The translations under genes were made by a program, and so were the position numbers. Below the pieces are notes generated by a model that worked only from the letters and a program-made list of their open reading frames with translations, was not told the origin of the DNA and searched no databases. A DNA stretch of 64,000 bases from a virus: IMG/VR virus record IMGVR_UViG_3300032116_000037, positions 1 to 64,000 of that record; one strand, 5' to 3'. Each line of letters opens with the position of its first letter. Positions within the stretch are counted from its first letter, which is position 1. This document shows positions 295 through 27,335 of this stretch, in pieces.

Positions 295-322
295 CAGTTT
301 TGTTTTTTTAACGGCTAGAGAT

Positions 323-345
323 AAAAAAAGGAGCCTTTCGGCTCC
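323..345 (-). terminator. Rho-independent terminator of the 351-821 gene
   Basis: Read on the minus strand, the perfect stem GGAGCC-GAAA-GGCTCC (330-345) is followed by seven T residues (323-329). It starts 6 bp after the stop codon of the minus-strand gene. The duplicated copy near 1628-1645 has a decayed version of the same hairpin. Confidence 0.85.
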
Positions 346-350
346 ACGGA

Positions 351-1142: not shown

Positions 1143-1621
1143 ATGAAACGAGAAAAATGGCAGAGTTACGGAAGCTTGTATTGCGGAACGACAAGAAACG
1201 GGGTGATTCAGACCCGGAGACCAATGCGTTACGGGACGGACTGTCTTAAAAGAGGATGGCTTTCGCGTCACAAAAGGGTCTGGCAGAGCAAGAAAGCGTC
1301 GAGGAGTGGGCGTTTGCCGTTTCTAGGGTGTTTTGTATGTTGGAGCCCGACCAAATGGTATCATTTGATACAGGGGCCCGACGCCTTATTGTCACTAGTG
1401 GAGACGTAGTGGTTGTTCGCGTCACGTGGAAAGGCGAGTTTTTAAACGCGGGACTACGTGTCCACAATATTCCAGTCTGCCGCTGTCTTATCGCTGTTCG
1501 GAGTGGCTCCTAGTTTGGCGGCGAATTGGTCTTTGCCGAAGACGTTATCAGTTGTATCGGAACCGCCGGGGAAAGCGGCTGGATGGTACAGTTAGTCGAA
1601 ACTTTCGGCTGCTTCAACTAG
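1143..1621 (+). pseudogene. Decayed inverted copy of the 351-821 gene
   Basis: The DNA aligns along its length with the minus-strand gene at 351-821, including the ribosome-binding region (GGAGAGAG) and the first codons ATGAAACG. A one-base insertion after codon 2 to 3 puts the start out of frame. The middle is readable from about 1260 to 1510 (for example MLEPDQMVSFD and RVHNIPVCRCLIAVR, nearly identical to the intact copy). An in-frame TAG at 1511-1513 replaces a glutamine codon. The rest (GESGWMVQLVETFGCFN) then reads to a TAG at 1619. The downstream terminator hairpin is also degraded. The gene is most likely dead. Confidence 0.85.
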
Positions 1622-1706
1622 TCCGTTGAGACGAAAGGATCCTTATTTTAGCTCTGGCCGCTTCTTCGCTGGCGTGGTGCGGTAGCACCATATAGCCAGC
1701 GTGTGC

Positions 1707-1721
1707 GAGCTTTGCGAGCTC
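1707..1721. repeat. Short hairpin of the same repeat family
   Basis: GAGCT/AGCTC encloses TTGCG. The preceding bases (ACCATATAGCCAGC, 1687-1700) are almost the same as those before the 271-294 hairpin (GCCATATAGCCAGC), so a longer unit is shared between 259-294 and 1686-1721. Confidence 0.6.
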
Positions 1722-1759
1722 CATTTTAATGTCACGGTTAAAGTTCGCATCTAAATGCT

Positions 1760-1906
1760 TCAGCGGCCGCAAATAGAACGGTGCGAGGCTTTGCGAGCAC
1801 TCGTTCAGGCCGCAGCGGCCGTAAGCGGCCAGCGACGACCCCCTGGAGGGGGTCTAGCATCGGGGGTGTTGCGTGCCTGTAGTCCGAGGCTTTGCGAGGA
1901 TTACAG
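1760..1906. repeat. 147-bp composite GC-rich repeat, copy 1
   Basis: This copy contains, in order, a hairpin GAACG-GTGC/GCAC-T-CGTTC with loop GAGGCTTTGCGA (1776-1806), the hairpin GACCCCC/GGGGGTC (1837-1854), and the hairpin CTGTAGTCC/GGATTACAG (one G-T pair) with the same GAGGCTTTGCGA loop (1877-1906). The same order and length are found in direct orientation at 9041-9187. No plausible gene is seen between 1622 and 2021. Confidence 0.85.
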
Positions 1907-2021
1907 AACAGCACGCCGCTTGGCAAGGACGCACGCTGCAGGAACGTCAGAGAAGCGGTGAAAGACGTCCCGCAGCGTTCCTTTTGCTGCTAAAGTGCGG
2001 CCAGGGTCTCGGTTGAGACAG

Positions 2022-2048
2022 AAAAAAAGGAGAATGTTTCCACTCTCC
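2022..2048 (-). terminator. Terminator at the end of the minus-strand block
   Basis: On the minus strand GGAGA/TCTCC (2029-2048) is followed by seven T residues (2022-2028). It lies 12 bp beyond the last gene of the minus-strand operon. Confidence 0.75.
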
Positions 2049-2059
2049 CTTTATTTTAT

Positions 2060-2218
2060 TTAATAATCTTCTGGATGAGGAACTTCTGGTCCCGTATACG
2101 CTGGATTCTTAACCCATACATCATATGGTGTTAATATCCATGGTTGTTCTTTTCTTTCTTCAGCTACATTAGCTGCGAATTCTCGCATAGCATCTTGTTC
2201 TGTAGCCATTTCATCCAT
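2060..2218 (-). CDS. Small hypothetical protein (52 aa)
   Basis: Not recognised. The start at 2218 has a strong AGGAGAGAAA site immediately upstream. The N-terminal half (MDEMATEQDAMREFAANVAE) looks helical and acidic; the C-terminal half is rich in proline and aromatic residues (PWILTPYDVWVKNPAY). It is the last gene of the minus-strand block, 13 bp from the next gene, and is followed by a terminator. Confidence 0.65.
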   Translation of the reverse strand: MDEMATEQDAMREFAANVAEERKEQPWILTPYDVWVKNPAYTGPEVPHPEDY

Positions 2219-2231
2219 TTTCTCTCTCCTG

Positions 2232-2459
2232 TTAATATGTTTCCTTAATGAAATCAATGATTTTATCCACACTGTAATCCCAGAAGTATCCAGTCCTTCC
2301 TTCTGGGGGATTCAGTTCTTGAATTTCAAAATACTCCGCAGTTCGGTGCATCTTGAATTTGATTCCTTTATACTCAATATTGGCAATGTGCATATCACCA
2401 TGTTCATCTGGTAATACATCTTCTACTGCCGCAATCCAAATGTTGTCGTTTTGAAACAT
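2232..2459 (-). CDS. Small hypothetical protein (75 aa)
   Basis: Not recognised. An AGGAGAGAA site precedes the ATG at 2459. The sequence suggests a small mixed alpha/beta protein with a charged N-terminal half (DVLPDEHGDMHIANIEYKG) and a C-terminal helix (SVDKIIDFIKETY). No cysteine pairs or membrane segments. It is co-oriented and closely spaced with its neighbours. Confidence 0.7.
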   Translation of the reverse strand: MFQNDNIWIAAVEDVLPDEHGDMHIANIEYKGIKFKMHRTAEYFEIQELNPPEGRTGYFWDYSVDKIIDFIKETY

Positions 2460-2468
2460 TTCTCTCTC

Positions 2469-2666
2469 CTATTGATAAATCTCTCTGAACTGCCTTACAA
2501 ACCACGGCTCTTTAATAAGAGCAAAGATACCAGCAATATTATAATGAAATGTCACAAGATCACCAGTTGTTTTGTGGTACATCTCTACTGGCGACTCTCC
2601 ATTAAGCATAATGACTACTTCATGCCCATGCAACCAAAAACTGCAGAAGAATGTAAAATTCTCCAT
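2469..2666 (-). CDS. Small hypothetical protein (65 aa)
   Basis: Not recognised. A GAAGAGAGAAAAAG site precedes the ATG. The protein is hydrophobic and aromatic at its N-terminus (MENFTFFCSFWLHGHEVVIM) and ends in a basic helix (EPWFVRQFREIYQ). It lies 9 bp upstream of the 2459 start and belongs to the same operon. Confidence 0.65.
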   Translation of the reverse strand: MENFTFFCSFWLHGHEVVIMLNGESPVEMYHKTTGDLVTFHYNIAGIFALIKEPWFVRQFREIYQ

Positions 2667-2688
2667 CTTTTTCTCTCTTCTATTTTAT

Positions 2689-2862
2689 TTACCAAAACCA
2701 CCCATCAAATAACCAATATACAACTTGTCCTGTTGCATATCCTGCATGAGCACTAAACAACCACATAGTTAATATGTTTATTCCTTTGTCCACTGGGCAA
2801 TGTCTTGGTTTTTTCCACTCTTGTTCACTCAAATACTGAGCAAATTCAATAAACTCATCCAT
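2689..2862 (-). CDS. Small probable membrane protein (57 aa)
   Basis: The minus strand encodes MDEFIEFAQYLSEQEWKKP followed by a hydrophobic segment (about residues 29-50, GINILTMWLFSAHAGYATGQ and following) and an aromatic end FDGWFW. An AGGAG site stands 6 bases before the start at 2862. One membrane segment is likely. Function unknown. Confidence 0.6.
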   Translation of the reverse strand: MDEFIEFAQYLSEQEWKKPRHCPVDKGINILTMWLFSAHAGYATGQVVYWLFDGWFW

Positions 2863-2896
2863 GAGTTTCTCCTAGTGATAAAATTGATTCTCTGCT

Positions 2897-3103
2897 TTAC
2901 AGATGGACGCGCACCCGACCCAAAGCCGTGTGCAAATCTTCTACCTTCCTGATAAATTCGTCCGAACAACAGCCCGGATTTGCAAGGATTCGATTACATC
3001 GAGCTTCAAGTTCTTTCAACACACGGAAATCCGACGCCTTATCAATTGCCGGAGGTTGGTTAATTGTTTGATTTGGACTGGCCCAACGTTGCGTTTCATT
3101 CAT
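2897..3103 (-). CDS. Small hypothetical protein (68 aa)
   Basis: The start at 3103 (MNETQRW) is chosen because GGAG lies six bases upstream; an ATG four codons earlier (3115) contains that site within its own codons. The C-terminal two thirds (LKELEARCNRILANPGCCSDEFIRKVEDLHTALGRVR, residues 30-66) is predicted helical by eye. Function unknown. Confidence 0.6.
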   Translation of the reverse strand: MNETQRWASPNQTINQPPAIDKASDFRVLKELEARCNRILANPGCCSDEFIRKVEDLHTALGRVRVHL

Positions 3104-3230
3104 GTCAAACTCCATTCATGCTAATTAAAACCAAACACAATGTACAAAAACCGGTACTCCCAGCAGAGGAGAGATAACTGCTTAGTTTCCCGGTACAACT
3201 TAGAGGGAGAGAATCTCTTAGTTGTTAAAA

Positions 3231-3306
3231 GGTGGGTGACGGGAGTCGAACCCGCATGGATTTGATTCACAGTCAAATTTCTGAAAACCACTACAGAACA
3301 CCCAAC
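3231..3306 (-). tRNA. tRNA-His (GTG)
   Basis: The minus strand folds into a cloverleaf. The acceptor is TTGGGTG with CACCCAC, with one T-C mismatch at 1:72 but a G at -1 opposite C73, the identity mark of tRNA-His. The anticodon stem is TTTGA/TCAAA with loop CTGTGAA (anticodon GTG) and the T arm is GCGGG-TTCGACT-CCCGT. CCA is not encoded. Confidence 0.9.
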
Positions 3307-3423
3307 ATAAAAAACAGCCTTGAGTAACCACACTCTTACTGTACGGCCTTTAATTTCACTTACAAGTAACCAGCCTTCATTCTCAAGTTGAAGCATCTTG
3401 GCATTTTTTCTCTCCTTTATGAA
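3307..3423 (-). other. tRNA-tRNA spacer with a doubtful short reading frame
   Basis: A good AGGAGAGAAA site precedes ATG 3404, but that frame stops after 14 codons. A second ATG at 3396 opens a frame starting MLQLENEGWLLVSEIKGRTV that is protein-like for about 30 residues and then runs straight through the tRNA-His gene. This may be a gene truncated when the tRNA arrived, or a one- or two-base frameshift of a real small gene. Confidence 0.3.
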
Positions 3424-3507
3424 TGGTTTCAGTGGGACTTGAACCCACACGGGATAATTCCCATAGGATTTTAAATCCTAGGTGTCTGCCGATTCCACCA
3501 TGAAACC
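3424..3507 (-). tRNA. tRNA-Leu (TAA)
   Basis: Type II cloverleaf on the minus strand. The acceptor is GGTTTCA/TGAAACC, the D region GGTGGAATCGGCAGAC is typical of tRNA-Leu, the anticodon stem is TAGGA/TCCTA with loop TTTAAAA (anticodon TAA), there is a long variable arm, and the T arm is GTGGG-TTCAAGT-CCCAC. The discriminator is A73. Confidence 0.92.
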
Positions 3508-3514
3508 AAAAAAA

Positions 3515-3699
3515 CAGTTCTACTGGGATGGGCTTCAACCATCAATAGCTTAATAGGTTGTACAATTATTAGGTACATATCCCACCGGCCTTTTAGCTCC
3601 GGATTATTTTTTAGCTATTAGTCTTTCTGATTTAAAAACCAAGTAGACTAGATATACACTCTACTGTGTCTGCCATTTCCGCCATAAAACCAAAAAACA
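3515..3699 (-). ncRNA. Structured RNA or degenerate tRNA-Leu/Tyr-like element
   Basis: On the minus strand the 5' end (GGTTTTATGGCGGAAATGGC, then AGACAC) strongly resembles the 5' half of the adjacent tRNA-Leu. Its GGTTTTA can pair with TAGAACT near 3519-3525, an acceptor-like helix with two G-T pairs. Between them, about 170 bases hold other helices: AGTAGA/TCTACT, TAGCT/AGCTA, TGGGAT/ATCCCA, and a T-arm-like GATGG-TTGAAGC-CCATC. A normal anticodon arm is not visible. It could be a decayed tRNA with an insertion or a distinct structured RNA. Confidence 0.4.
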
Positions 3700-3935
3700 C
3701 GCGGGTTGGTTTTACACCAACTACTCTACTATAGAGCGGTATGGGCTATTAGTATCCATTCAGGTTTGGTTCTGGCTTATTGCTAAACACCCTAACTGCG
3801 ATACGCTGCACCCGCTTCCCTAGAAGGACCTAGTCCCTTGCACGCGTGGTATATTTTACTGTTCATTACGCGAAATTTATTCTATTCTCCTTTGTCAAAG
3901 TTAAACACTGCAAATTAAGTGCAGCATGGGGCTAA
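3700..3935 (-). ncRNA. Hairpin-rich non-coding stretch
   Basis: No gene is seen. On the minus strand CACGCG near 3840-3846 can pair with CGCGTG near 3698-3703, enclosing hairpins such as CTCTA-TAG-TAGAG and GTTGGT-GTAA-AACCAAC. This suggests one folded RNA of about 145 nt, processed together with the neighbouring tRNAs. The identity is unknown. Confidence 0.35.
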
Positions 3936-4008
3936 TGAGACTGGCGAGATTCGAACTCACGACCAGTAAATTAAAAGTTTACTGCTCTACCAACTGAGCT
4001 ACAGTCTC
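3936..4008 (-). tRNA. tRNA-Lys (TTT)
   Basis: Complete 73-nt cloverleaf on the minus strand. The acceptor is GAGACTG/CAGTCTC with A73, the D arm is AGCTCAGTTGGTAGAGC, the anticodon stem is AGTAA/TTACT with loop ACTTTTAAT centred on TTT, and the T arm is GTGAG-TTCGAAT-CTCGC. CCA is not encoded. Confidence 0.95.
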
Positions 4009-4275
4009 CTTTTAAATAGCCGGGAGCACCAATCGGTAACTCTCAGCTTTAAAGCAGTTTTTCACCAGCTACTAAGAGCTATGAATTACCACTGCTTTGA
4101 ATGATTTAAATCAGCAGGCGGGTCCCTGAAACCACTTTAAAACCTGCTGTTTGGGAAGCTCACTGCGTTCGCCTAGAGATAAATTGACTCATTGCTGGGC
4201 CATATCTCAGGCGGGAACACTTTTAAATACGACCGCATGAACCCTGCGACTTCTGGCAGCGGCTCATGTATCCTA
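4009..4275. ncRNA. Three consecutive long hairpins beside the tRNA-Lys gene
   Basis: No gene is seen. Perfect inverted repeats are AAAGCAGT/ACTGCTTT (about 4052-4101), CAGCAGG/CCTGCTG (about 4112-4151) and GAGATA/TATCTC (about 4176-4209). Their regular succession next to tRNAs suggests transcribed, folded RNA rather than protein-coding DNA. The strand is unclear, though the neighbours are all on the minus strand. Confidence 0.4.
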
Positions 4276-4782
4276 TTATATAACAAGGTTAGATTCAAGT
4301 GTGATTACCTCCGTGGGAATATTATGCTGTTGGCAGTACTTGAATGCTTGTGCTGTTCCCCTGCTTGTGGGATTGAATACCCATACCTTATTAACGGAGT
4401 CCATCATCCACTCATTCCGTACAAAATTTGAATGTCGTCCGTTACTGTAGATACTGTCGCAGATGTATTGCGTGTCAGTCGATTGATTCACCAATTCTTG
4501 GAACTCTATCATCCGATTTCGTCCAGTTTGTGAAGTCTGACCCCAGTAATACTCGCCATACCCTGCATTTGGGATGGCTGCACACCAGTCAGTTCTGGTT
4601 AGAATGGCTGCTTTTGCCAATGCTTCATCAAATCCCTCTGCCATCCCGCTGATGACGTAATCCACACGGTCCGAAATGATTTTTCGTGTAAGCAGTTCAA
4701 TCATTTCCGCCATGATGGCTGGTTTGGTTACTAACGACCGACTTCCTGCTCCCGCAATCATATTGTTGTAAACGCAGTTCAT
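4276..4782 (-). CDS. SLOG-superfamily (DprA/YspA-like) Rossmann protein (168 aa)
   Basis: The protein begins with a glycine-rich nucleotide-binding loop (AGAGSRSL, residues 10-17). It continues with the conserved SLOG strand-turn-helix VISGMAEGFDEALAKAA (about 43-59), RNEWMMDSVNKVWVF (about 122-136) and GTAQAFKYCQQHNIP (about 142-156). This arrangement matches YspA/cpYpsA-like SLOG proteins, which bind nucleotides or nucleotide-derived ligands and often act in nucleotide sensing or conflict systems. The AGGAGAG site before ATG 4782 supports the start. It is the first gene upstream of the structured RNA and tRNA cluster. The ligand is not predictable from sequence. Confidence 0.75.
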   Translation of the reverse strand: MNCVYNNMIAGAGSRSLVTKPAIMAEMIELLTRKIISDRVDYVISGMAEGFDEALAKAAILTRTDWCAAIPNAGYGEYYWGQTSQTGRNRMIEFQELVNQSTDTQYICDSIYSNGRHSNFVRNEWMMDSVNKVWVFNPTSRGTAQAFKYCQQHNIPTEVITLESNLVI

Positions 4783-4820
4783 GTCACTCTCCTATTGTTG
4801 TGATAAGCCCACAAGACACA

Positions 4821-4994
4821 TCAAGCATTTTGAATATCTTCTTGAATATCTTGTAACCGTTCTGCCCAATCAATGGCTTCTTGAAGATTCGCAAACTCGT
4901 CAAAAATCTCATCATCAGTCATGGTCTCAATGATCCAATGGCCACCTTCATCATAATTTGCCATTGCCCAATCTTTAATTTCTTGTACTTTCAT
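4821..4994 (-). CDS. Small acidic hypothetical protein (57 aa)
   Basis: The ATG at 4994 follows GGAGAGAAAAG. The protein is acidic, with a C-terminal helix LQEAIDWAERLQDIQEDIQN. An earlier in-frame start would extend into the SD region and is rejected. Function unknown; operon partner of its neighbours. Confidence 0.65.
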   Translation of the reverse strand: MKVQEIKDWAMANYDEGGHWIIETMTDDEIFDEFANLQEAIDWAERLQDIQEDIQNA

Positions 4995-5017
4995 CTTTTC
5001 TCTCCTTGTATTGTTTA

Positions 5018-5248
5018 TCACCAACCAACCCACCACTTATTATTAGATTCTTGCACTCCAAACCCTCTCTTTTTTAATTCTTCAATAGTTTGTGTATATG
5101 TTGATAAATCAATATAGATTCCTCTCATACCTTCTTCAGCAGCTTCTTTGATTTTTTGAATTACTTCTTGGAGTTCTTCATGTACAATTTTTAATTTTAC
5201 TTCATACGCAGTTTTTCTTGCTTGATTTACATCATATTCGATTGTCAT
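5018..5248 (-). CDS. Small hypothetical protein with helical core (76 aa)
   Basis: The start ATG 5248 (MTIEYDVNQ) is preceded by AGGAG. Residues 10-45 form a long amphipathic helix (KIVHEELQEVIQKIKEAAEEG), followed by a beta-alpha-beta-like end (IYIDLS, TIEELKKRGFGVQ, KWWVGW). The end resembles small nucleic-acid- or protein-binding folds, but no family is recognised. Confidence 0.65.
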   Translation of the reverse strand: MTIEYDVNQARKTAYEVKLKIVHEELQEVIQKIKEAAEEGMRGIYIDLSTYTQTIEELKKRGFGVQESNNKWWVGW

Positions 5249-5274
5249 ATCCAACTCCTGCTAATTAAATCCAG

Positions 5275-5348
5275 TAGGGCCGCCCAGACTCGAACTGGGA
5301 ACCTAAAAATTATGAGTTTTTTGCTCTAACCGATTGAGCTACGGCCCC
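5275..5348 (-). tRNA. tRNA with CAT anticodon (Met, or possibly Ile2)
   Basis: 74-nt cloverleaf on the minus strand: acceptor GGGGCCG/CGGCCCT (one G-T), D arm AGCTCAATCGGTTAGAGC, anticodon stem AAAAA/TTTTT with loop CTCATAA, T arm CCCAG-TTCGAGT-CTGGG, A73. It lacks the fMet 1:72 mismatch, so it should be elongator Met or lysidine-modified Ile2. The window has a second CAT tRNA at 21675 and a TilS gene. Confidence 0.9.
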
Positions 5349-5362
5349 ATTATTAATATACC

Positions 5363-5530
5363 CTAAGTCATCTTATTTCTGTCTAACAATTCCTGAATTT
5401 CCTGAGTTCTTTTCTTATTGGCCACTATCCAGACTGTTTTACCCCTGATAAATATTTTTCTCTCTTTTACGGGGTTTTTGAGCTTTTCGAAAAAATTTTG
5501 GACTTTTTTGACAATTTTGAGATTTTTCAT
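5363..5530 (-). CDS. Small basic hypothetical protein (55 aa)
   Basis: Starts at ATG 5530 (MKNLKIVKKVQNFFEKLKNP). The sequence is strongly lysine/arginine rich, with a central RGKTVWIVANKK strand, and may bind nucleic acid. No clear ribosome binding site is visible. A longer reading from a GTG at 5629 would cross the GAACG repeats. Moderate doubt that it is expressed. Confidence 0.4.
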   Translation of the reverse strand: MKNLKIVKKVQNFFEKLKNPVKERKIFIRGKTVWIVANKKRTQEIQELLDRNKMT

Positions 5531-5563
5531 GCTTAAAAAGTGGTGTAAGTCACTACAATATAT

Positions 5564-5725
5564 CGTTAACGTTCTTAGGACGAACGCTAACGCTGCTTTC
5601 AAGTCTTTATCGGTCCGCTTGAGAAACACCGAATTGAGACGGTTGTTAAAACAACACTTACATTTATCACCTGTAAGTATTCTACGTCTTTAAAGAACGT
5701 TATCAGTCTTTAGCGAACGTTAACG
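5564..5725. repeat. Cluster of four GAACGYTAACG motifs
   Basis: CGTTAACGTTC (5564-5574) and GAACGCTAACG (5582-5592) form a near-perfect inverted repeat with a 7-bp spacer. GAACGTTATCA (5695-5705) and GAACGTTAACG (5715-5725) follow, the last overlapping the stop of the next minus-strand gene. The arrangement looks like paired protein-binding sites (operator or initiator iterons). Confidence 0.6.
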
Positions 5726-6016
5726 GTGCCCGCCCCGAATCTGTGCTGCTGTATCGTCAAAAACACGCCAAGCGTTAGCTAATGCTGTACCTACTCTCGC
5801 ATCGTCGTAATAGATGCCAGTTTGCTCCACTTCCTCGATAAAATGTCGAAATTCAGTAAGCAGCCTTTCAATTTTACAATTAACTTCCTCCCGCTCCGCC
5901 TTCCGTCCGGCAGTGTAGGCCGCTTGCCAAAACTGCCACGCAAAAATGTCGTCGCAAGATACCCTATACTCCTTAGCCCGCTTCTCAAACTTCGCTCGCA
6001 TCTTGTCGTCGCTCAT
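5720..6016 (-). CDS. Conserved-looking phage hypothetical protein (98 aa)
   Basis: The protein is highly charged and helical. The central motif IFAWQFWQAAYTAGRKAERE (about residues 24-43) is of a kind seen in many small phage proteins of unknown function (WQAAYxAGR-AERE). The rest is helix (CKIERLLTEFRHFIEEVEQ). The start ATG 6016 overlaps the stop of the upstream gene (ATGA), showing translational coupling. GC content is higher than in the plus-strand region. Confidence 0.75.
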   Translation of the reverse strand: MSDDKMRAKFEKRAKEYRVSCDDIFAWQFWQAAYTAGRKAEREEVNCKIERLLTEFRHFIEEVEQTGIYYDDARVGTALANAWRVFDDTAAQIRGGHR

Positions 6017-6153
6017 TCGCCCCCATCCTTATCACTTGAAATATCTTTCCGTGCCAAATACTTTGCGATTGCCGTTCCAAGCTGAAACGCACAAACTGTC
6101 GATACACCAATGGCTAATCCTGTTATAAACGCATGGATTACTGACTGATACAT
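6013..6153 (-). CDS. Small membrane protein (46 aa)
   Basis: The minus strand encodes MYQSVIHAFITGLAIGVSTV followed by CAFQLGTAIAKYLARKDIS and a short charged tail. A single hydrophobic helix (residues 6-32) is followed by a basic and polar tail. The gene overlaps the next by 4 bp and follows AGGATGAGG-like SD bases. Holin-like size, but the function is unknown. Confidence 0.6.
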   Translation of the reverse strand: MYQSVIHAFITGLAIGVSTVCAFQLGTAIAKYLARKDISSDKDGGE

Positions 6154-6177
6154 TCCTCATCCTTTCCGCAGCGTGCG

Positions 6178-6300
6178 TCAGGCCACTCGCTTCATTGTTT
6201 TATTGCACTTGTGGCACTTTGGCTTTACACCGTTCCACGCCCGCTCTGTGCGTTTGCACTTCGGGCACTTGTAGGTAGCTCCATTCATCTGCTTCGGCAC
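6178..6300 (-). CDS. Zinc-ribbon mini-protein (40 aa)
   Basis: The protein has two CxxC knuckles, YKCPKCKRTE and PKCHKCNKTM, 18 residues apart, typical of a zinc ribbon. The GTG start at 6300 is supported by GGAGG five bases upstream. The next in-frame ATG is four codons later. It probably binds nucleic acid or a protein partner. Confidence 0.65.
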   Translation of the reverse strand: MPKQMNGATYKCPKCKRTERAWNGVKPKCHKCNKTMKRVA

Positions 6301-6456
6301 ATTAACCTCCCGAGCTAGAGAACAACGCGGCCCGCTTCGCCGCGTTCGCCTAGCCCAAATTTGACTTATACTGCACCGAAATGAAAAAGATGACCCAGAA
6401 CACGCATTTTCAAAAATAACGCATTCTGGGTCAAATTTGACGGCTTTATGAGCACT
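6301..6456. promoter_or_regulatory. Intergenic region with two inverted repeats
   Basis: CGCGGC/GCCGCG at 6326-6344 and a perfect 10-bp inverted repeat TGACCCAGAA/TTCTGGGTCA at 6391-6433 with a 23-bp loop. On the minus strand the second could be an operator or weak terminator between the 6457-6678 gene and the zinc-ribbon gene. No T-run is seen. Confidence 0.5.
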
Positions 6457-6678
6457 TTAGGCTCGCTTAGCCAAATCCCTGACAGGAAACCATTCATTAT
6501 GACCAGTGACCCAAAGACAAACTTTGGATTCTTTAGTCTCTCGGTTGGTTAATACCCGAGGTTCCGTCATGATTTTTCCGTTGGTGCCAGTGCTCTTTAC
6601 GAACACTTTTCGGCCAATTGGAAGATTTTCACTGACCCATTCCAAATCTTTAGTGATTTTTTCTGAGTTTGTGCTCAT
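6457..6678 (-). CDS. Hypothetical protein, SH3-like composition (73 aa)
   Basis: ATG 6678 follows AAGGAAAAG. After a helical start (SEKITKDLEWVSENL) the rest is a string of short strands (KVFVKSTGT, KIMTEPRVLT, KVCLWVTGHNEWFPVRDLAK) resembling a small beta-barrel with a conserved W-F-PVRDL end. Function unknown. Confidence 0.65.
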   Translation of the reverse strand: MSTNSEKITKDLEWVSENLPIGRKVFVKSTGTNGKIMTEPRVLTNRETKESKVCLWVTGHNEWFPVRDLAKRA

Positions 6679-6983
6679 TCGTATCTTTTCCTTTGAATAA
6701 CATTGTGGATTTGTTGCATTTGGCAAAACCTCTCAAGAATATGATAATCCCACCTTTCTTGAAAATGCTTCAAATACAGATTATTTACTCTGTTAAGTTC
6801 TTTGAAAGCTTTTTTGGGATTATTTTCCTTTTTGAATACTTCATCAGTTTGATGGAAATATTCTTTTCGCAGTTCAATAATATCCATATAGTCTTCTACA
6901 TGAATATTGAACTTACGGAGCTTTGCCCCTCGTGTTTTTAGTACTACTGCGAGGATTCCCATGGCTCTCCCTTTTTTAGACAT
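6675..6983 (-). CDS. Helical hypothetical protein (102 aa)
   Basis: The start is taken at ATG 6983 (MSKKGRAMG); a GTG ten codons upstream is the alternative. The protein is lysine rich and helical, with a likely coiled-coil stretch ELRKEYFHQTDEVFKKENNP and ERWDYHILERFCQMQQIHNV. It overlaps the next gene's start by 4 bp. Function unknown. Confidence 0.6.
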   Translation of the reverse strand: MSKKGRAMGILAVVLKTRGAKLRKFNIHVEDYMDIIELRKEYFHQTDEVFKKENNPKKAFKELNRVNNLYLKHFQERWDYHILERFCQMQQIHNVIQRKRYE

Positions 6984-7129
6984 TTTGGGGTAACTTGATT
7001 CATCCAATTCCACAAGTCAGCAGGTTTGCCCTGCTTAACTAACTTACTAGCTCCTTCAACAATCTTCCCATTCTTATCACGCGGATAAAGAACAAGGGTC
7101 GGCTTGGGGCTAGTTTCAGCTTTGGACAT
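6944..7129 (-). CDS. Small hypothetical protein (61 aa)
   Basis: ATG 7129 follows GGAAGAATGT. The protein starts MSKAETSPKPTLVLYPRDKN and ends GEPWESSQ. The central GKPADLWNWMNQVTPKCLKK is helical. It overlaps the flanking genes on both sides, as expected in a compact phage operon. Function unknown. Confidence 0.6.
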   Translation of the reverse strand: MSKAETSPKPTLVLYPRDKNGKIVEGASKLVKQGKPADLWNWMNQVTPKCLKKGEPWESSQ

Positions 7130-7646
7130 ACATTCTTCCTTTTTCTGAATCAAACACTTTTTCAAATGAGACACGAGACCCGTTTTTAATTACGAACCAA
7201 TTGCGAGGAAAGCGGCCCTCTGTGGCATTTACATACACTTCCCACATTTCATCTTGGCTCCATCCAGCATGCCCCGTGCCAATCGGAGCAATTAAAAAAT
7301 TGAGGAAGGGCTTCCTTTTTGTATACGAATACAGCTCTTTAAGCTGTGCCTCTATTTCTTCAAGTGGCACGCTGCGGGGTTGGACTGCTGTAGTACACGT
7401 GAGGATACCCCACCCAATTCCATCTGTTCCAGCCATTAGCCCGCTGGATATTCGAAGGACAGCAAACAACCCTCTAACGCGATTGCCACTGTTCCATTGA
7501 TTTTGAAATTTTTTATTATTTTCCCATCCTGATGCTCTGCCCATATAAGCCCATCCGGCACTACCAGCCCCATGAAAACCATTTTCATTTGTTTGAAAAA
7601 CGAAAATATCTCTATGTCCAATAGCACCCAATGCGGGCAGTTCCAT
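7116..7646 (-). CDS. A1S_2505-like phage protein (176 aa)
   Basis: Sequence signatures match the phage A1S_2505-type family: IFVFQTNENGFHGAGSAGWA (residues 13-32, the N-G-x-HGAG loop), WGILTCTTAVQPRSVPLEEI (about 79-98) and FLNFLIAPIGTGHAGWSQDE (about 113-132). The HGAGSA and IGTGHAGW loops resemble the ligand-binding loops of macro/NADAR-type folds, so a nucleotide or ADP-ribose-like ligand is conceivable, but this is inference. The start at 7646 (MELPALGAIG) is chosen where the conserved region begins. An upstream in-frame ATG at 7718 would add a hydrophobic stretch. Confidence 0.7.
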   Translation of the reverse strand: MELPALGAIGHRDIFVFQTNENGFHGAGSAGWAYMGRASGWENNKKFQNQWNSGNRVRGLFAVLRISSGLMAGTDGIGWGILTCTTAVQPRSVPLEEIEAQLKELYSYTKRKPFLNFLIAPIGTGHAGWSQDEMWEVYVNATEGRFPRNWFVIKNGSRVSFEKVFDSEKGRMYVQS

Positions 7647-7738
7647 TTTATTCACTTCATTTGTTAGAGTAAAACAATGTAAGAAAAAAAAGGGTACTAA
7701 GCGTATATATGTGTTCACCGCCGTTCCCCTCTGATAAA

Positions 7739-7825
7739 CTATAGTTTGTATCCAGTAGTTTCTTCAATATGAATGAGAATCATTTTGAAGATTGTAAAGA
7801 ATACAATGAGTGGTAGGATAAACAC
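7739..7825 (-). CDS. Possible 28-aa single-span membrane peptide
   Basis: A GTG start directly follows the stop of the upstream gene. The peptide is hydrophobic (FILPLIVFFTIFKMILI) with a short polar tail. No clear ribosome binding site. It could be real through coupling or chance in an AT-rich gap. The rest of 7647-7827 shows no gene. Confidence 0.3.
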   Translation of the reverse strand: MFILPLIVFFTIFKMILIHIEETTGYKL

Positions 7826-7827
7826 TA

Positions 7828-8484
7828 CTACTCGTCGCTGTCACCATCATCTTCGAGCGAGGCGAACAACTGTCCGAGAGTGTCCAGTCCCAATCCCGGT
7901 ACCGACTCATCACCCTTCGAGTAAAGGATGTCGTCTAACCCATCAGCCTTCGCACGTCCCGGAGTCCAGTAGGTACCATCTTCGGAAGCACCAACAAAGC
8001 TGAGAATCGATTGCGACTCAGATTGAATCGCTTGCAGCTTTGGAATCTGAATCTTCATGGACTGGACCGTGTTCCGCCACATTTCTGACAGCGAAACCTT
8101 TTGTGCCTCAGCCGACGCGTGCAACTTGTTCATGAGAACTTCGTCGCCAATCTTGTCCTGCAACTCTTGGACAGTCCCAATCGCGGTGAGAGCCTCGAAC
8201 TTCTCCAACTTTGCACTTGACAGTTGGTTGCGACGAATGGCTCGTGGGATAATACCCTCTGCCTTCGGGTTCGCTTCGTTCTTGGTAAAAATCTTGCGAT
8301 AGAGTGCTTCAGCTACCGCCTGCCGGTCGTCATCCTTCAGTTCACGGTCGACAAACGTTGACTTGAGATAGTCAATCGCGTCCTTCTTGGACATGTCACC
8401 ACGCTTCATCGCAGTGTACGATTCGAGAAGCTGCTCGTTAGAAACCTTGTTCACGTGAATGCTGTTTTTGCCTTTACGGGCCAT
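7828..8484 (-). CDS. Hypothetical protein with acidic C-terminus (218 aa)
   Basis: The start is placed at ATG 8484 (MARKGKNSIHV). The N-terminal basic part is followed by mostly helical sequence (EQLLESYTAMKRGDMSKKDA; TVQELQDKIGDEVLMNKLHA) and a strongly acidic tail ending EDDGDSDE. GC content and codon use are higher than its AT-rich neighbours, like the protein at 24214. No family is recognised; the layout (basic head, helical body, acidic tail) would suit a nucleoprotein or scaffold. Confidence 0.75.
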   Translation of the reverse strand: MARKGKNSIHVNKVSNEQLLESYTAMKRGDMSKKDAIDYLKSTFVDRELKDDDRQAVAEALYRKIFTKNEANPKAEGIIPRAIRRNQLSSAKLEKFEALTAIGTVQELQDKIGDEVLMNKLHASAEAQKVSLSEMWRNTVQSMKIQIPKLQAIQSESQSILSFVGASEDGTYWTPGRAKADGLDDILYSKGDESVPGLGLDTLGQLFASLEDDGDSDE

Positions 8485-8566
8485 GTGTGTAACCTTTGTA
8501 ACAGATGTGAAAAACCAAAACAAAACTCAAAAATCAAAATCAACCATCGACCAATTTCTTACACTT

Positions 8567-8803
8567 TCAATTCTCCTTTTGACGAAGATACAACTTGCCA
8601 CCACCTTTCACACGAAGATAGTGCAAATTTGTTAACTTACAGTCGCACAAATCCACCATCATCTGATGGTCTTCAACACTTTCAGGAAACTCCAATTTTA
8701 CTGTCACTGGTGGATTATACAATCTCAAAGAAAGCTCATTATCTTGAATGTTCGTTTTCAACACTCCAATCTTACACGCCACTTCCAATATTGTTGCTGT
8801 CAT
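8567..8803 (-). CDS. Small hypothetical protein (78 aa)
   Basis: ATG 8803 (MTATILEVACKIGV) follows AAGGAAAAAG. It has a beta-rich middle (LSLRLYNPPVTVKLEFPES) and a C-terminal strand-rich end (LHYLRVKGGGKLYLR). Overlaps the upstream gene by 32 bp. Function unknown. Confidence 0.6.
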   Translation of the reverse strand: MTATILEVACKIGVLKTNIQDNELSLRLYNPPVTVKLEFPESVEDHQMMVDLCDCKLTNLHYLRVKGGGKLYLRQKEN

Positions 8804-8960
8804 TTTCTTTTTCCTTAAAACACTGACAACCAATAAATTTATTTTTCTTTAATATTTCTTTTATTGTATTATCAGCTTCTTTAATTGTTTTTGCGACACA
8901 CTCAAAAACTAATTTTTTATTTTCCCACCCGCCAGCATTATCATAATATTTAAATTTCAT
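8772..8960 (-). CDS. Small hypothetical protein (62 aa)
   Basis: Starts MKFKYYDNAGGWENKK after AAAGGAAAA. A beta strand KLVFECVAKT is followed by a lysine-rich helix (EADNTIKEILKKN). It is the first gene of the minus-strand block, next to the divergent regulatory region. The strand-strand-helix pattern is loosely like the array proteins on the other side of that region. Confidence 0.6.
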   Translation of the reverse strand: MKFKYYDNAGGWENKKLVFECVAKTIKEADNTIKEILKKNKFIGCQCFKEKENDSNNIGSGV

Positions 8961-9392
8961 TTTTTTTCCTTTTTATTAAATCGCCCGACGATACACTACT
9001 TTTCATTTTTTTATTTTTATTTTTTTATTTTTTTATTTTTTCAGCGACCGCCAGAGGAACGGTGCGAGGCTTTGCGAGCACTCGTTCAGCCGGCAGCGGT
9101 CGCAATGGCCGGCCTAGCGACGACCCCCTGGATAGGGGGTCTAGCATTGGGGGTCGAGTCGAGACCGCAGACGAGGCTTTGCGAGTCAAGGTCGAGACTT
9201 GCTTTTCCGCGTCGCATATTGATAAAAATAATCTCAAAATAATACAGAAAATATATTAGAGGAAAAATTCCCGCCGTAAAGGCTGTTCAAGGGCTGTTAA
9301 AATTCCCTTAAGTCCGGCACGCTGTTTGCTCTATAGTGGCCCGGCAAGTGCCGCATTTCCATTTTATAAATAAAAATAATAAATAAAATAAT
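8961..9392. promoter_or_regulatory. Divergent intergenic region
   Basis: Minus-strand genes end their upstream side here and the plus-strand series starts at 9393. From 9000 to 9040 there is an almost pure T/A tract, then the 147-bp GC-rich repeat, then an AT-rich promoter-like stretch with CTATAGT (9332-9338) and TATAAAT (9365-9371) ahead of the first plus-strand ATG. The GC hairpin region between 9240 and 9360 (GCCGGCAC and GCCCGGCAAGTGCCGC) is also palindromic. Confidence 0.55.
9041..9187. repeat. 147-bp composite GC-rich repeat, copy 2
   Basis: The order of elements is the same as at 1760-1906: CAGCGACCGC, hairpin GAACG-GTGC/GCAC-T-CGTTC with loop GAGGCTTTGCGA (9057-9087), hairpin GACCCCC/GGGGGTC with loop TGGATA (9122-9141), the bases TCTAGCATTGGGGGT, then GAGGCTTTGCGA again (9173-9184), here with only a 3-bp stem GAC/GTC. 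The copies lie in direct orientation 7.28 kb apart. Confidence 0.85.
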
Positions 9393-20356: not shown

Positions 20357-20545
20357 ATGAAAAAATCTTTTTTAATAAAAAAAGGCATAGCAAATTATTA
20401 TTATATATGTATTGAATGTTATAATACTCAATATATAACATTAAGACAAAAACTAAATAAAATTAGTCCTTGTGTATGCAGAGGGCGTTATTGTTTTGAG
20501 AATAATTTTAGTTTAAGTCTTATAGCGCTATATCAAAAATTATGA
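20357..20545 (+). CDS. Array small protein 52 (62 aa)
   Basis: MKKSFLIKKGIANYYYICIE, CYNTQYITLRQKLNKISPCV, CRGRYCFENN. Array pattern with helix ITLRQKLNKI. Its stop overlaps the tilS-like start by 4 bp. Confidence 0.6.
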   Translation: MKKSFLIKKGIANYYYICIECYNTQYITLRQKLNKISPCVCRGRYCFENNFSLSLIALYQKL

Positions 20546-21084
20546 AAATTACAAAACTTCCTAAAACATGCCATCTTGCCTTAAGTGGCGGAATTGATTC
20601 TATGTTTGGTTTGGTTTTTTTAATGAGCGGGCCGCCTAGAATTGAATCATGTATCCATATTAATCATGGAACTGAAAGAGCTAATGAATATGAAGATTTT
20701 TGCTCTAATATTTGTAATTATTATGGTATCAGACTTGATGTACATCACTATGATAAAAATAAACCAATGACTGAGGATGCTTGGCATTCTTTTAGATATG
20801 ATATTTTCTCTTCCTATCCTAAAAAAGTAATTGTTTGCCATCATAAAGATGATAATCTTGAAAACAAATTACTGTTTGGTAAGATTATGAAGCCCGAAAA
20901 TGGTAATATTGTAAGACCTTTTTTGCAAGTTACTAAAGCAGAAATTAGAAATAGAATGGCTGGTTATGCGTATATTGAAGACCCGACCAATCTTGATGAA
21001 AATTTTACTAAAAGAAATAAAGTAAGACGAATTATTCAAGAGTTAAAAGATATTGGTTGTGCATTAGATAGTTTACTACAATGA
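20542..21084 (+). CDS. tilS: Minimal tRNA(Ile)-lysidine synthetase, TilS N-type PP-loop protein (180 aa)
   Basis: The PP-loop SGGIDS (residues 15-20), HHKDDNLEN (100-108), EDPTNLDENF (146-155) and RNKVRR (158-163) are the signature motifs of TilS, in the right order and spacing. TilS adenylates C34 of tRNA-Ile(CAU) with ATP and attaches lysine, giving lysidine, so that the tRNA reads AUA and is charged with Ile instead of Met. Cellular TilS is usually 300-430 residues; here only the catalytic N-terminal domain is present. A CAT-anticodon tRNA with an Ile2-like anticodon arm lies 0.6 kb downstream. TtcA-like thiolation enzymes are the alternative but lack the DPTN-RN motif and carry other cysteines. 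Confidence 0.85.
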   Translation: MKITKLPKTCHLALSGGIDSMFGLVFLMSGPPRIESCIHINHGTERANEYEDFCSNICNYYGIRLDVHHYDKNKPMTEDAWHSFRYDIFSSYPKKVIVCHHKDDNLENKLLFGKIMKPENGNIVRPFLQVTKAEIRNRMAGYAYIEDPTNLDENFTKRNKVRRIIQELKDIGCALDSLLQ

Positions 21085-21263
21085 TAACAGTTCTTCCACA
21101 AAAAAATTCAAGTTTTTGTATGTTATTACAAATTAATTTTACACAATCTGAAGAAATAACAGATGAAGATAGATTAAAAATATTTTTGAAAAAAAGTATT
21201 AATGAGAAAATTGCCAATATAGAAACAATAAACTGGCCTTTACCAATAGTTGTACAATCATAG
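21081..21263 (+). CDS. Array small protein 53 (60 aa)
   Basis: MITVLPQKNSSFCMLLQINF, TQSEEITDEDRLKIFLKKSI, NWPLPIVVQS. ATGA overlap with tilS. Array pattern with helix DRLKIFLKKSI. Confidence 0.6.
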   Translation: MITVLPQKNSSFCMLLQINFTQSEEITDEDRLKIFLKKSINEKIANIETINWPLPIVVQS

Positions 21264-21274
21264 ATGGAGATTAA

Positions 21275-21469
21275 ATGTATACTGCACAAATTCTTTTGTT
21301 AATTTTGTTTATTTGTCGCTCGTTTTTAACTATTGTTAATACTGCAAAAAATAACAGGAAATCAAATCTTTCAATGGGAGAGGATTTATTCGCATCAGTG
21401 ATTGCTATAGGTGTTATTTATGCTTTATTGTATTATGCTGGTTCATTTAGTTTGATTTTTAAAAATTAA
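21275..21469 (+). CDS. Small two-span membrane protein (64 aa)
   Basis: MYTAQILLLILFICRSFLTI (1-20) and LFASVIAIGVIYALLYYAGS (about 38-57) are hydrophobic, separated by a polar loop NTAKNNRKSNLSMGED. GGAG stands seven bases upstream of the ATG, unlike array genes. Function unknown. Confidence 0.6.
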   Translation: MYTAQILLLILFICRSFLTIVNTAKNNRKSNLSMGEDLFASVIAIGVIYALLYYAGSFSLIFKN

Positions 21470-21610
21470 ATGATTGAGATTAGATTACCATACATAAGCG
21501 CTCGCAATATTGATTTATATTGTAAAGACTCAAGTGTATTTAATATTATATTTGATAAAATTGATCTAATTAATAAATATTATGTGACCTCAAAAATTCA
21601 AGTTTATTGA
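21470..21610 (+). CDS. Array small protein 54, last member (46 aa)
   Basis: MIEIRLPYISARNIDLYCKD, SSVFNIIFDKIDLINKYYVT, KIQVY. Full strand-strand-helix-strand pattern. Followed by a 64-bp spacer and tRNA genes. Confidence 0.6.
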   Translation: MIEIRLPYISARNIDLYCKDSSVFNIIFDKIDLINKYYVTSKIQVY

Positions 21611-21674
21611 TAAATATGATATGCTCGGTCATACAAGAATAATAGATCATTTAATGTGTAATTATTAATTACCT

Positions 21675-21748
21675 CCGCCATTAGCTCAATCGGTTAGAGC
21701 AGGAAACTCATAATTTCAAGGTTCCAAGTTCGAGTCTTGGATGGCGGA
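21675..21748 (+). tRNA. tRNA with CAT anticodon, probably tRNA-Ile2 (lysidine target)
   Basis: Cloverleaf with acceptor CCGCCAT/ATGGCGG, D arm AGCTCAATCGGTTAGAGC, anticodon stem GGAAA/TTTCA-type with loop CTCATAA, T arm CCAAG-TTCGAGT-CTTGG and A73. The stretch AGCAGG-xx-ACTCATAAT-xx matches the anticodon arm of bacterial tRNA-Ile(CAU) more closely than tRNA-Met. With tilS 591 bp upstream, Ile2 identity is the favoured reading. Confidence 0.85.
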
Positions 21749-21754
21749 CTATTT

Positions 21755-24632: not shown

Positions 24633-24696
24633 TTTGCTATAGTTTAATCGGTAAAACATATTACAGTATATGCGGGTTCGAATCCTGTTAGCAAAT
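24633..24696 (+). tRNA. tRNA-like gene with shortened anticodon arm (64 nt)
   Basis: The acceptor TTTGCTA/TAGCAAA pairs perfectly. The D arm (GTTT-AATCGGTA-AAAC) and T arm (GCGGG-TTCGAAT-CCTGT) are normal. Only 14 bases (ATATTACAGTATAT) are left for the anticodon arm plus variable loop, about 9 fewer than usual. They form a small palindrome with no clear anticodon. Either a decayed tRNA or a tRNA-like RNA with another job. Confidence 0.6.
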
Positions 24697-24940: not shown

Positions 24941-25036
24941 ATGACTTTACAAGATATATTCATATATAGTTCAATTCAACAAAGGATAATTAATGATAGT
25001 ATTGTATGCATATACTGGTTTGCAAATTCCATATGA
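24941..25036 (+). CDS. Leader-like mini-ORF upstream of prs (31 aa)
   Basis: MTLQDIFIYSSIQQRIINDS runs into the prs start. Its sequence contains the prs ribosome binding site (AAAGGATAATTA). A second mini-ORF starting MTLQDVFYIS stands in the same place before the AAA+ gene at 31031, so the first five residues are conserved. It may be a translational-coupling leader. Confidence 0.45.
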   Translation: MTLQDIFIYSSIQQRIINDSIVCIYWFANSI

Positions 25037-25859
25037 AATCTTAAACTTTCCAGACGGTGAAACTTTTGTAAAGTTGGCCGTATCAAAAGATGATAAGATA
25101 TCTATACTATGGAAGTATGAGAACGACGGCGAATTATTTACTCTCGGTTTGTTAGCTGATGTTATCAAAAATAACAAAGCTTCATTAGAGAAAATCATAA
25201 TTCCTTATTTTCCTCATGCTAGACAAGATAGGGCGACCGCACCTAATCAACCGTTCTCTCTGAAAGTTTTCATGGAGATTCTAAAGAGTATTATTGGTAA
25301 AGATTCTACGCAAATATATACTCTTGATATTCATTCCAATACGCCATTCGATTTAATAAATCATGGTAGTCTAACAAATATAAGTTCATCAATACTAACC
25401 ACTAATTTTAGTTTTAGTAATATAGATTGTTTAATTTGTCCAGATAAAGGGGCAAGGAGTAGAGTAGAGGAATGGGCGTTAATGTTAAATTTGCCAATTT
25501 TATATTGCGAAAAAACCCGCGACCCGTCAACTGGCAAATTGAGTAATCCTACTGTAGTTAATAAAAGTAATCTTAAAGAAGATTGGAAATACTTATTAGT
25601 TGATGATATTGGTACAGGATTTGGAACTCATATAGGATTAGCAAAAAGTATCAAAAGTTTAACAAACGTTTCTATTGAAATTGTTGTTTCTCATGCTGGA
25701 TTCTCTAATGGAATAGAGCCAGTATTAGAGGTCTTTGACAAAATTTATACAACAGATAGTTTAATTAAGGGATATAATAAAATAAAAGATTCAGAAAGTT
25801 TCAATAGCCGTATATTTGTAATGCCAGTAGAAAAAGTTTTTAATTTGCCTACCGTATAA
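24993..25859 (+). CDS. prs: Ribose-phosphate pyrophosphokinase (PRPP synthetase, 288 aa)
   Basis: The enzyme makes PRPP from ribose 5-phosphate and ATP. Motifs: PDGETFVK (20-27, ribose-phosphate side), PYFPHARQDR (71-80, ATP and metal site), DIHS (112-115) and the PRPP loop LLVDDIGTG (201-209). It is slightly shorter than bacterial Prs (about 315). It sits directly before nadV, whose enzyme uses PRPP, so the two form an NAD-precursor pathway; PRPP also feeds nucleotide synthesis. ATG 24993 has AAAGGA seven bases upstream. Confidence 0.93.
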   Translation: MIVLYAYTGLQIPYEILNFPDGETFVKLAVSKDDKISILWKYENDGELFTLGLLADVIKNNKASLEKIIIPYFPHARQDRATAPNQPFSLKVFMEILKSIIGKDSTQIYTLDIHSNTPFDLINHGSLTNISSSILTTNFSFSNIDCLICPDKGARSRVEEWALMLNLPILYCEKTRDPSTGKLSNPTVVNKSNLKEDWKYLLVDDIGTGFGTHIGLAKSIKSLTNVSIEIVVSHAGFSNGIEPVLEVFDKIYTTDSLIKGYNKIKDSESFNSRIFVMPVEKVFNLPTV

Positions 25860-25871
25860 AGGAAAATATAA

Positions 25872-27335
25872 ATGAAAGTTTTACCAATTCTATTGTCTGA
25901 TAGTTATAAACAATTTCATTGGATGATGTACCCAAAAGGGATTACTAAACTTTATAGTAATATGACCCCAAGGAATTTTAAGCACTTAAAAACTGATAAG
26001 GCTGTTTTTTTTGGATTACAGTATTATGTCAAAGAATATCTAATGAAGCAGTGGAATGAAAACTTTTTTAATCAACCAAAAGAAAAGGTATTACAAGAGT
26101 TTAAGCGATTCCATAAATATTTTAGCAACTATGATATGTCAACAGAACATATTGAAAAGTTGCATGATTTAGGTTATCTACCAATTTCCATTAAAGCTCT
26201 ACCAGAAGGCAGTCTTGTTAAAGAAAAGATTCCTTTCTTTACTATAACAAATACCCATCCTGATTTTGCCTGGTTAGTTAATTTCCTTGAAACTCAAATG
26301 AGTACTAGTATTTGGGATTGCTGTGTAGTTGCTACAATAGCATATGAATATAAAAAGATATTAAATAAATGGGCAGACCTTACTTGTGATGATAGAAGTT
26401 TTGTACAATGGCAGGGTCATGATTTTTCTCAAAGAGGAAGAAGTAGCCAAGAAAGTACATTAAATCAGGCTGGGCATCTTTTAAGTTTTACTGGCACTGA
26501 TACTATTCCTAGCGTATTAATGCTAGAAGAATATTATAATGCCAACATGGAAAATGAATTAATTGCCAGTAGCGTGCCAGCAACTGAACATTCAGTTATG
26601 ACAAGTTATGGTAAAGAAAATGAAATCAATGCATTCGAAAGAATTTTAGAACAATTCCCTACTGGGATAGTTTCTGTCGTAAGTGATAGTTTTGATTTGT
26701 GGGCAGTGTGTACTGACTTTTGCGTTAAGCTTAAAGATAAGATATTGAATAGAGATGGAAAGTTAGTTATCCGCCCTGATAGTGGAGATCCTGTTGATAT
26801 TGTTTGTGGTTTAAATACTACAGATAAAGCACATCAATTAGATCATCCTTCATCTAAAGGCGTTGTTGAACTTCTTTGGAATGTTTTCGGTGGAAAAATT
26901 AATAGCAAGGGTTATAAAGAATTAGACCCCCATATTGGTGTTATCTATGGTGATAGTATCAGCAGAGAAAGAGCAGAAGAAATTTGCAAGCGATTAGAAC
27001 AAAAAGGTTTTGCAAGTAACAATATAGTTTTTGGTATAGGAAGCTATACTTATAACTATAATACTAGAGATAGTCTTGGGATAGCTGTTAAGAGCACTTA
27101 TTGTGAAGTAGACGGAATCCCTAGAGAAATCTTTAAGGACCCTGTCACCGATGATGGAATCAAAAAGAGCGCAAAGGGTTTGCTTAAAGTTAATAAAGAC
27201 AATGGAGAATATTCTTTACAAGATATGGTTTCTCCAGAAGATGAAAAAGGAGGATTCTTAGATACAGTATTCCTGGATGGAAAATTGTTAATAGACCATC
27301 GTCTAGGAGATATTAGGTCAAGGTTACAATCATAA
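25872..27335 (+). CDS. nadV: Nicotinamide phosphoribosyltransferase (487 aa)
   Basis: NAMPT/NadV family enzyme joining nicotinamide and PRPP to nicotinamide mononucleotide. Diagnostic stretches: FGLQYYVKEYL (46-56), GRSSQESTLNQAGHLLSFTG (about 196-215) leading to TDT, SVPATEHSVMTSYG (about 238-251), VVSDSFDLW, and VIRPDSGDPVDIV (about 300-312), the PRPP-binding region. Full length for the family (about 460-490). It lies 12 bp after prs. Phage NadV with Prs restores NAD pools, including after host defences consume NAD; the NMN adenylyltransferase that would finish NAD is not in this window. Confidence 0.95.
   Translation: MKVLPILLSDSYKQFHWMMYPKGITKLYSNMTPRNFKHLKTDKAVFFGLQYYVKEYLMKQWNENFFNQPKEKVLQEFKRFHKYFSNYDMSTEHIEKLHDLGYLPISIKALPEGSLVKEKIPFFTITNTHPDFAWLVNFLETQMSTSIWDCCVVATIAYEYKKILNKWADLTCDDRSFVQWQGHDFSQRGRSSQESTLNQAGHLLSFTGTDTIPSVLMLEEYYNANMENELIASSVPATEHSVMTSYGKENEINAFERILEQFPTGIVSVVSDSFDLWAVCTDFCVKLKDKILNRDGKLVIRPDSGDPVDIVCGLNTTDKAHQLDHPSSKGVVELLWNVFGGKINSKGYKELDPHIGVIYGDSISRERAEEICKRLEQKGFASNNIVFGIGSYTYNYNTRDSLGIAVKSTYCEVDGIPREIFKDPVTDDGIKKSAKGLLKVNKDNGEYSLQDMVSPEDEKGGFLDTVFLDGKLLIDHRLGDIRSRLQS

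Follow-up and report, generated by a model that had tools for sequence, protein, structure and literature searches.

Locus organization

The window analysed here covers positions 1-64000 of a virus record with a length of 128,386 bp, in which genes typical of tailed phages were found (terminase, DNA polymerase, ribonucleotide reductase, ligase and UvsX). The nearest annotated phages were too distant to name a host. A gene for a short protein resembling tRNA(Ile)-lysidine synthetase (TilS) was found upstream of a CAT tRNA gene, within the following set of features:

5274-5348, minus strand: second CAT tRNA, identity ambiguous; G4-C69, C5-G68; Rfam 70.5 bits
20357-20545, plus strand: ORF of 62 aa, overlaps the tilS start; no Pfam match
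20542-21084, plus strand: tilS-like gene, 180 aa; predicted catalytic (N-terminal) domain only
21081-21263, plus strand: ORF of 60 aa, overlaps the tilS stop; no Pfam match
21275-21469, plus strand: ORF of 64 aa between tilS and the tRNA-Ile2 gene; no Pfam match
21675-21749, plus strand: predicted tRNA-Ile2(CAU), presumed substrate; C4-G69, C5-G68, loop CTCATAA, A73; ARAGORN, Rfam tRNA 64.5 bits
21754-21827, plus strand: tRNA-Arg(UCU), reads AGA, adjoins the tRNA-Ile2 gene at its 3' side; ARAGORN, Rfam

The tilS stop codon was separated from the tRNA-Ile2 gene (21675) by 591 bp on the same strand, with two small ORFs in between. ATGA overlaps occurred at both ends of tilS (20542-20545 and 21081-21084), so the arrangement follows the pattern of an intact, translationally coupled operon. 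Promoter-like sites were not in excess over shuffled sequences in the scan and gave no usable evidence for the idea, put forward in an earlier note on this DNA, that the unit serves early genes.

The first part of the window (1-9300) had a GC content of 0.45 versus approximately 0.30 further on, an AUA share of Ile codons of 0.16 versus 0.41, and many minus-strand ORFs. A tandem repeat of 87 bp, rich in G+C, stands at the contig start. Also present were an inverted repeat with arms at 312-697 and 1275-1660 and a repeat of 86% at 1759-1824 and 9040-9105. This part may be a module of its own or the product of a chimeric join.

Sequence and predicted structure of the phage protein

TilS is the bacterial enzyme that turns a tRNA with a CAU anticodon into a reader of AUA (Ile). 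The earlier note had read a 180-aa TilS with the core motifs from the sequence, and SGGIDS, HHKDDNLEN and EDPTNLDENF were indeed present in ORF 20542-21084. The protein matched the Pfam PP-loop family PF01171 (E 9.5e-24), and its strong NCBIfam matches were to TilS only (TIGR02432, PRK10660). With TIGR02432, an equivalog domain, it scored 85.4 bits (E 4.5e-24), slightly below the curated cut-off of 93.6. Of ten other members tested, seven exceeded this value (103.6-139.6 bits), and the three closest to the 180-aa protein likewise stayed below it (80.9-84.8 bits). The best match among sequences of solved structures was Aquifex TilS.

The PP-loop signature SGGxDS was found as SGGIDS at residues 15-20. 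Across 66 phage sequences, S15, G16, G17, D19, S20, R85, D104, E107, D147, N150, R158 and R162 were invariant and H100 and D103 almost invariant; all invariant residues were present in the 180-aa protein. The HHxxDxxE motif and an upstream arginine (R85, H100, D104, E107) aligned with AaTilS and cellular TilS, and we take these residues to correspond to ATP/lysine-site residues of AaTilS. The TilS motif ED-x-(T/S)-N...R-(N/S/A)-x-x-R was conserved as well.

An AlphaFold2 model built with the 66-sequence alignment had a mean pLDDT of 93.3. The five PDB entries most similar to the model were all TilS (Aquifex, E. coli MesJ, Geobacillus; Z 18.4-21.1), with the thiolase TtuA ranking behind them (Z 17.2), and TilS also took ranks 1 and 2 in Foldseek. 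The protein thus shares the PP-loop catalytic domain, the motifs and the predicted fold (Z 18-21) with bacterial TilS of type I (E. coli, Geobacillus) and type II (Aquifex); its sequence, its predicted structure and the phylogenetic tree (see below) all group it with TilS.

Over its full length, the model aligned with Aquifex TilS from residue 9 to residue 225 (313-residue chain) and with E. coli TilS from 0 to 211 (433-residue chain), where it ended. Sequence alignment placed the end of the phage protein at residues 213-242 of cellular TilS of 312-465 residues. Type I TilS contain the C-terminal domains CTD1 and CTD2 and type II only CTD1, and in both types these domains act on the tRNA (PMC12514573). 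As judged from alignment and model, the phage protein is the TilS catalytic domain only, differing from the bacterial enzymes in the predicted lack of CTD1 as well as CTD2, in its position on a separate side of a branch in the tree and in an invariant Trp81. A C-terminal domain split off into neighbouring ORFs was considered and rejected: no sign of one was seen, the next two ORFs after tilS being without Pfam match, and the CTD1 family PF09179 had no match anywhere in the record. Since known TilS bind tRNA with the domains missing here, activity or specificity of the phage enzyme may differ, and the choice of tRNA would have to fall to the catalytic domain or an unknown partner.

Distribution and phylogeny of short TilS

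A single-sequence scan of viral contigs with the TilS protein returned no relative; alignments were required, and alignment-based scans of IMG/VR returned hundreds. We examined 83 viral loci (the best 80 of the first scan and three from annotated phages) and 36 further, previously unused viral loci from a second scan. The tilS ORFs encoded 190-235 aa in the first set and about 199-216 aa in the second, a uniform catalytic-domain size over approximately 120 viral loci. The 180-aa protein was the shortest member seen and had internal deletions relative to its relatives. On cellular genome contigs, two of 80 relatives were of phage size and the others had 266-528 aa. Both short ones, in a Halobacteriovorax MAG and a Pelagibacteraceae single-cell genome (L092, L093), had a CAT tRNA approximately 0.3-0.5 kb downstream; they are probably phage contigs and hint at hosts of the phage TilS family.

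A tree constructed with a quick method from 71 phage and 47 cellular sequences placed all phage sequences to the same side of a single branch (SH-aLRT 96). W81 was invariant in phage TilS, and most cellular TilS had alanine at this position. The short phage TilS are a clade and not a one-off truncation. A TilS match was absent from the searched near-identical fragment contigs of the phage (among L267-L270, L311 and L312) and from the partial sequences of its distant terminase relatives L271 and L272.

Identity of the CAT tRNAs

CAT tRNAs from approximately 25 cellular genomes and E. coli ileX, metT and metZ served as references; tRNA-Met was labelled by non-CTCATAA loops and tRNA-Ile2 by exclusion within a genome, with the E. 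coli genes as anchors. Pyrimidine-purine pairs at 4-69 and 5-68 occurred in 13 of 13 labelled cellular tRNA-Ile2 and in none of 16 tRNA-Met. The pairs C4:G69 and C5:G68 are dominant identity elements for E. coli TilS (PMC12514573). A position-wise identity score classified 49 of 50 tRNAs correctly when genomes were left out in turn, on a small training set in which some labels were given by exclusion only.

For the tRNA at 21675, the score favoured Ile2 by 32.8 nats relative to Met and by 35.4 nats relative to fMet. Unlike tRNA-Met, it combined the pyrimidine-purine pairs 4-69 and 5-68 with the loop CTCATAA. Its acceptor-stem and anticodon-loop elements (C4-G69, C5-G68, C32, A38) clearly predict a tRNA-Ile2, so that the Ile(CAU)-like anticodon arm noticed earlier in a CAT tRNA 591 bp beyond tilS is matched by the acceptor stem. 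The 'Met' label of ARAGORN, given to every CAT tRNA, was rejected as an identity call because it reads the anticodon alone. The first 28 nt of this tRNA, searched as an exact pattern, did not occur in the viral contigs.

The earlier note had named the second CAT tRNA (5274) alongside this one. For the latter the prediction was ambiguous, with +4.4 nats towards Ile2 on all positions and -0.8 on the acceptor stem alone; only the tRNA at 21675 was assigned to Ile2 rather than Met. Since the 5274 tRNA lies in the stretch of different composition, its membership of the tilS unit is doubtful.

Linkage of tilS and CAT tRNA genes

The supposed pairing of enzyme and substrate gained support from other phages, in many of which a tilS/CAT tRNA pair recurred far beyond chance. 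All viral loci were chosen by similarity to the 180-aa protein, with flanks of at most 10 kb. A CAT tRNA within 200 nt of tilS was present in 35 of the 83 loci, compared with a mean of 4.3 and a maximum of 14 when tilS was placed at random. Among tRNAs within this distance, 38 of 58 were CAT tRNAs, versus 67 of 493 overall in the first set. After clustering at 70% identity, linkage was found in 16.2 of 43 (2.1 expected), and all 44 CAT tRNAs within 600 nt were on the tilS strand. The second set gave 13 of 36 loci (2.25 expected). Phage-type tilS was found in none of 80 control viral loci picked only for having any tRNA, in which 36 of 526 tRNAs were CAT tRNAs.

Most CAT tRNAs within 600 nt of tilS scored as Ile2: 27 of 33 distinct ones in the first set, counting the 21675 tRNA, and 15 of 16 in the second. 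Several of those that did not had a G-rich acceptor (GGGGGAT/GGGGGTT), and a Bdellovibrionales tRNA with a similar G-rich acceptor is, by exclusion, probably an Ile2. Over half of the viral tilS loci were without a CAT tRNA within 200 nt, and some of the records without a nearby one had one elsewhere. In many loci the CAT tRNA was the sole tRNA within the 20 kb examined. At three loci (L016:5901-6058, L017:5615-5772 and L021:9810-9967), two different CAT tRNAs were found in tandem directly upstream of tilS, one of them with an unusual D arm (TAGTATAATTGGTGAATGC).

Use of AUA codons

AUA occurred 33 times per 1000 codons in the 128-kb record and accounted for 41% of its Ile codons. The coding sequence had been described as rich in ATA within the gene array; the richness was confirmed, but it was record-wide and not confined to the array. 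Between 9.3 and 128 kb, AUA use was 1.09 times that predicted from the other codons of the phage, compared with a median of 0.58 for cellular loci. At equal GC3, the AUA share of Ile codons was higher by 0.049 (se 0.019) in TilS-phage loci than in random tRNA-bearing viral loci, a comparison in which the loci are not independent. Six loci of terminase relatives, in which tilS was not detected, had a median AUA/Ile of 0.36. AUA-rich coding fits a role in AUA decoding but is weak evidence on its own, since AT-rich relatives without a detected tilS use much AUA, and codon use was rejected as proof of a cassette.

Comparison with known systems

Phage TilS, phage tRNA-Ile2 and, for chloroviruses, the connection of viral TilS with AUA are each already known. 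TilS of Pseudomonas phages MIJ3 and PA5oct falls into the same phage family (203 aa, catalytic domain only, 34% identical); the available text of the source annotates it as tRNA(Ile)-lysidine synthetase and mentions neither a substrate tRNA nor missing domains (PMC6892783). The CAT tRNAs of PA5oct are approximately 7-10 kb from tilS, in contrast to 591 bp in the present phage. Phage-encoded TilS also appears in annotation listings for pelagimyophage group A (PMC7029224) and phage RsoM2USA (PMC8504454), with no cassette described in the accessible parts of either source; the RsoM2USA protein (349 aa) is full-sized, unlike the present one of 180 aa. TilS was proposed to support AUA reading in chloroviruses, where AUA is 12-13 times more frequent in the virus than in the host; these are algal viruses, and a tilS-tRNA-Ile2 cassette is not described in the sections available (PMC7589089). 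T4-like phages have a lysidine-type tRNA-Ile(CAU), called Met by software, and no phage tilS is reported in the portion of the article at hand (PMC1524935); the tRNA is presumably modified by the host enzyme. In L. curvatus, tRNA-Ile(CAU) is frequent among prophages (PMC10688831). Our search of open-licence papers turned up no description of a linked tilS-tRNA-Ile2 cassette, nor of a TilS from which both C-terminal domains are missing.

Interpretation of the tilS-tRNA-Ile2 locus

The locus is probably a cassette in which the phage combines enzyme and substrate to decode AUA. We infer that the enzyme is active, that the neighbouring tRNA is its substrate and that the pair is beneficial in infection. 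The phage would make a minimal lysidine synthetase, consisting of the catalytic domain only, together with its own tRNA-Ile2(CAU). As known from bacterial TilS, the enzyme would adenylate C34 of this tRNA and then attach lysine, and lysidine-34 would block charging by MetRS and reading of AUG. The host IleRS would charge the resulting tRNA-Ile2(LAU), which could then read AUA. AUA capacity would be raised in a phage with 41% AUA among its Ile codons, independently of whether or how fast the host TilS modifies the phage tRNA. Since many other phages carry tilS and a CAT tRNA, often adjacent, they probably supply AUA decoding of their own rather than relying on that of the host. The stronger claim of a fully self-contained unit was not supported, as host IleRS and t6A37 are presumably still required, and the earlier suggestion of independence from host tRNA damage likewise gained no support.

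To our knowledge, TilS is encoded by almost every bacterium, which leaves the need for a further copy in the phage unproven. TilS of B. cenocepacia does not use E. coli tRNA-Ile2 (PMC12514573); a cellular TilS can thus refuse a foreign tRNA-Ile2, which offers one possible explanation of why a phage would carry an enzyme of its own. A further-reaching proposal, which we consider tentative and rather doubtful, is that a widespread phage clade lost both tRNA-binding domains and co-evolves with the linked tRNA-Ile2 as an orthogonal pair, the catalytic domain alone recognizing the tRNA and the host TilS modifying the phage tRNA poorly.

Alternatively, phage TilS might mainly boost lysidine on host tRNA-Ile2, with the adjoining tRNA serving codon supply separately and being modified by whichever of the two enzymes. 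This is consistent with the frequent occurrence of phage tRNA-Ile2 without a reported phage tilS (the T4-like phages, in the available portion of PMC1524935, and our control loci), with a vibriophage CAU tRNA that carries lysidine (as cited in PMC13191261) and the suggestion in the accessible text of that article that host enzymes modify phage tRNAs, and with the more than half of phage tilS loci that have no CAT tRNA within 200 nt. The same-strand linkage of tilS and CAT tRNA, far above chance in both locus sets, makes it unlikely.

Phages are known to carry replacement tRNAs, and the CAT tRNA is the only one in the 20 kb examined at many phage tilS loci. The pair could thus replace host tRNA-Ile2 lost to an anti-phage anticodon nuclease or host shut-off, codon supply being secondary; nothing in the window points to a tRNA-Ile2 nuclease, and we regard this explanation as quite improbable.

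A PP-loop tRNA enzyme with other chemistry, such as a thiolase of the TtcA/TtuA type, would agree with the close fold of TtuA (Z 17.2) and the missing TilS C-terminal domains. All strong specific family matches were nevertheless to TilS, the motif ED-x-(T/S)-N...R-(N/S/A)-x-x-R was kept and the gene is linked to a CAT tRNA, which renders such chemistry highly improbable. That tilS is a gene remnant in decay or an artefact of metagenome assembly, as its being the shortest member with internal deletions and the differing composition of the first ~9.3 kb of this metagenome contig might suggest, is scarcely credible against the ATGA overlaps on both sides, the retention of every invariant family residue, the confident structure model and the uniform domain size across ~120 viral loci.

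The cassette reading would unite scattered phage annotations in one mechanism, in which a phage brings a tRNA and the enzyme that gives this tRNA its meaning. The C-terminal domains of TilS are thought to assist in its discrimination between tRNA-Ile2 and tRNA-Met; with a clade of 180-aa to 235-aa proteins predicted to be without these domains, the minimum for lysidine formation and tRNA choice becomes testable, and the linked tRNA names a likely substrate. A compact enzyme-tRNA pair could also serve genetic-code work at AUA.

Other features of the window

A 64-nt Rfam tRNA match (43.9 bits), for which ARAGORN makes no call and in which the normal variable loop is seemingly missing, was located at 24633-24696 on the plus strand. 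On the minus strand, a second tRNA-Leu-like 5' half (GGTTTTATGGCGGAAATGGCAGACAC) adjoins an intact tRNA-Leu(UAA) at 3510-3700; Rfam gave neither an intron nor a tRNA match at this second half. Genes resembling PRPP synthetase and nicotinamide phosphoribosyltransferase were adjacent at 24993-27335 on the plus strand and are likely a NAD salvage pair.
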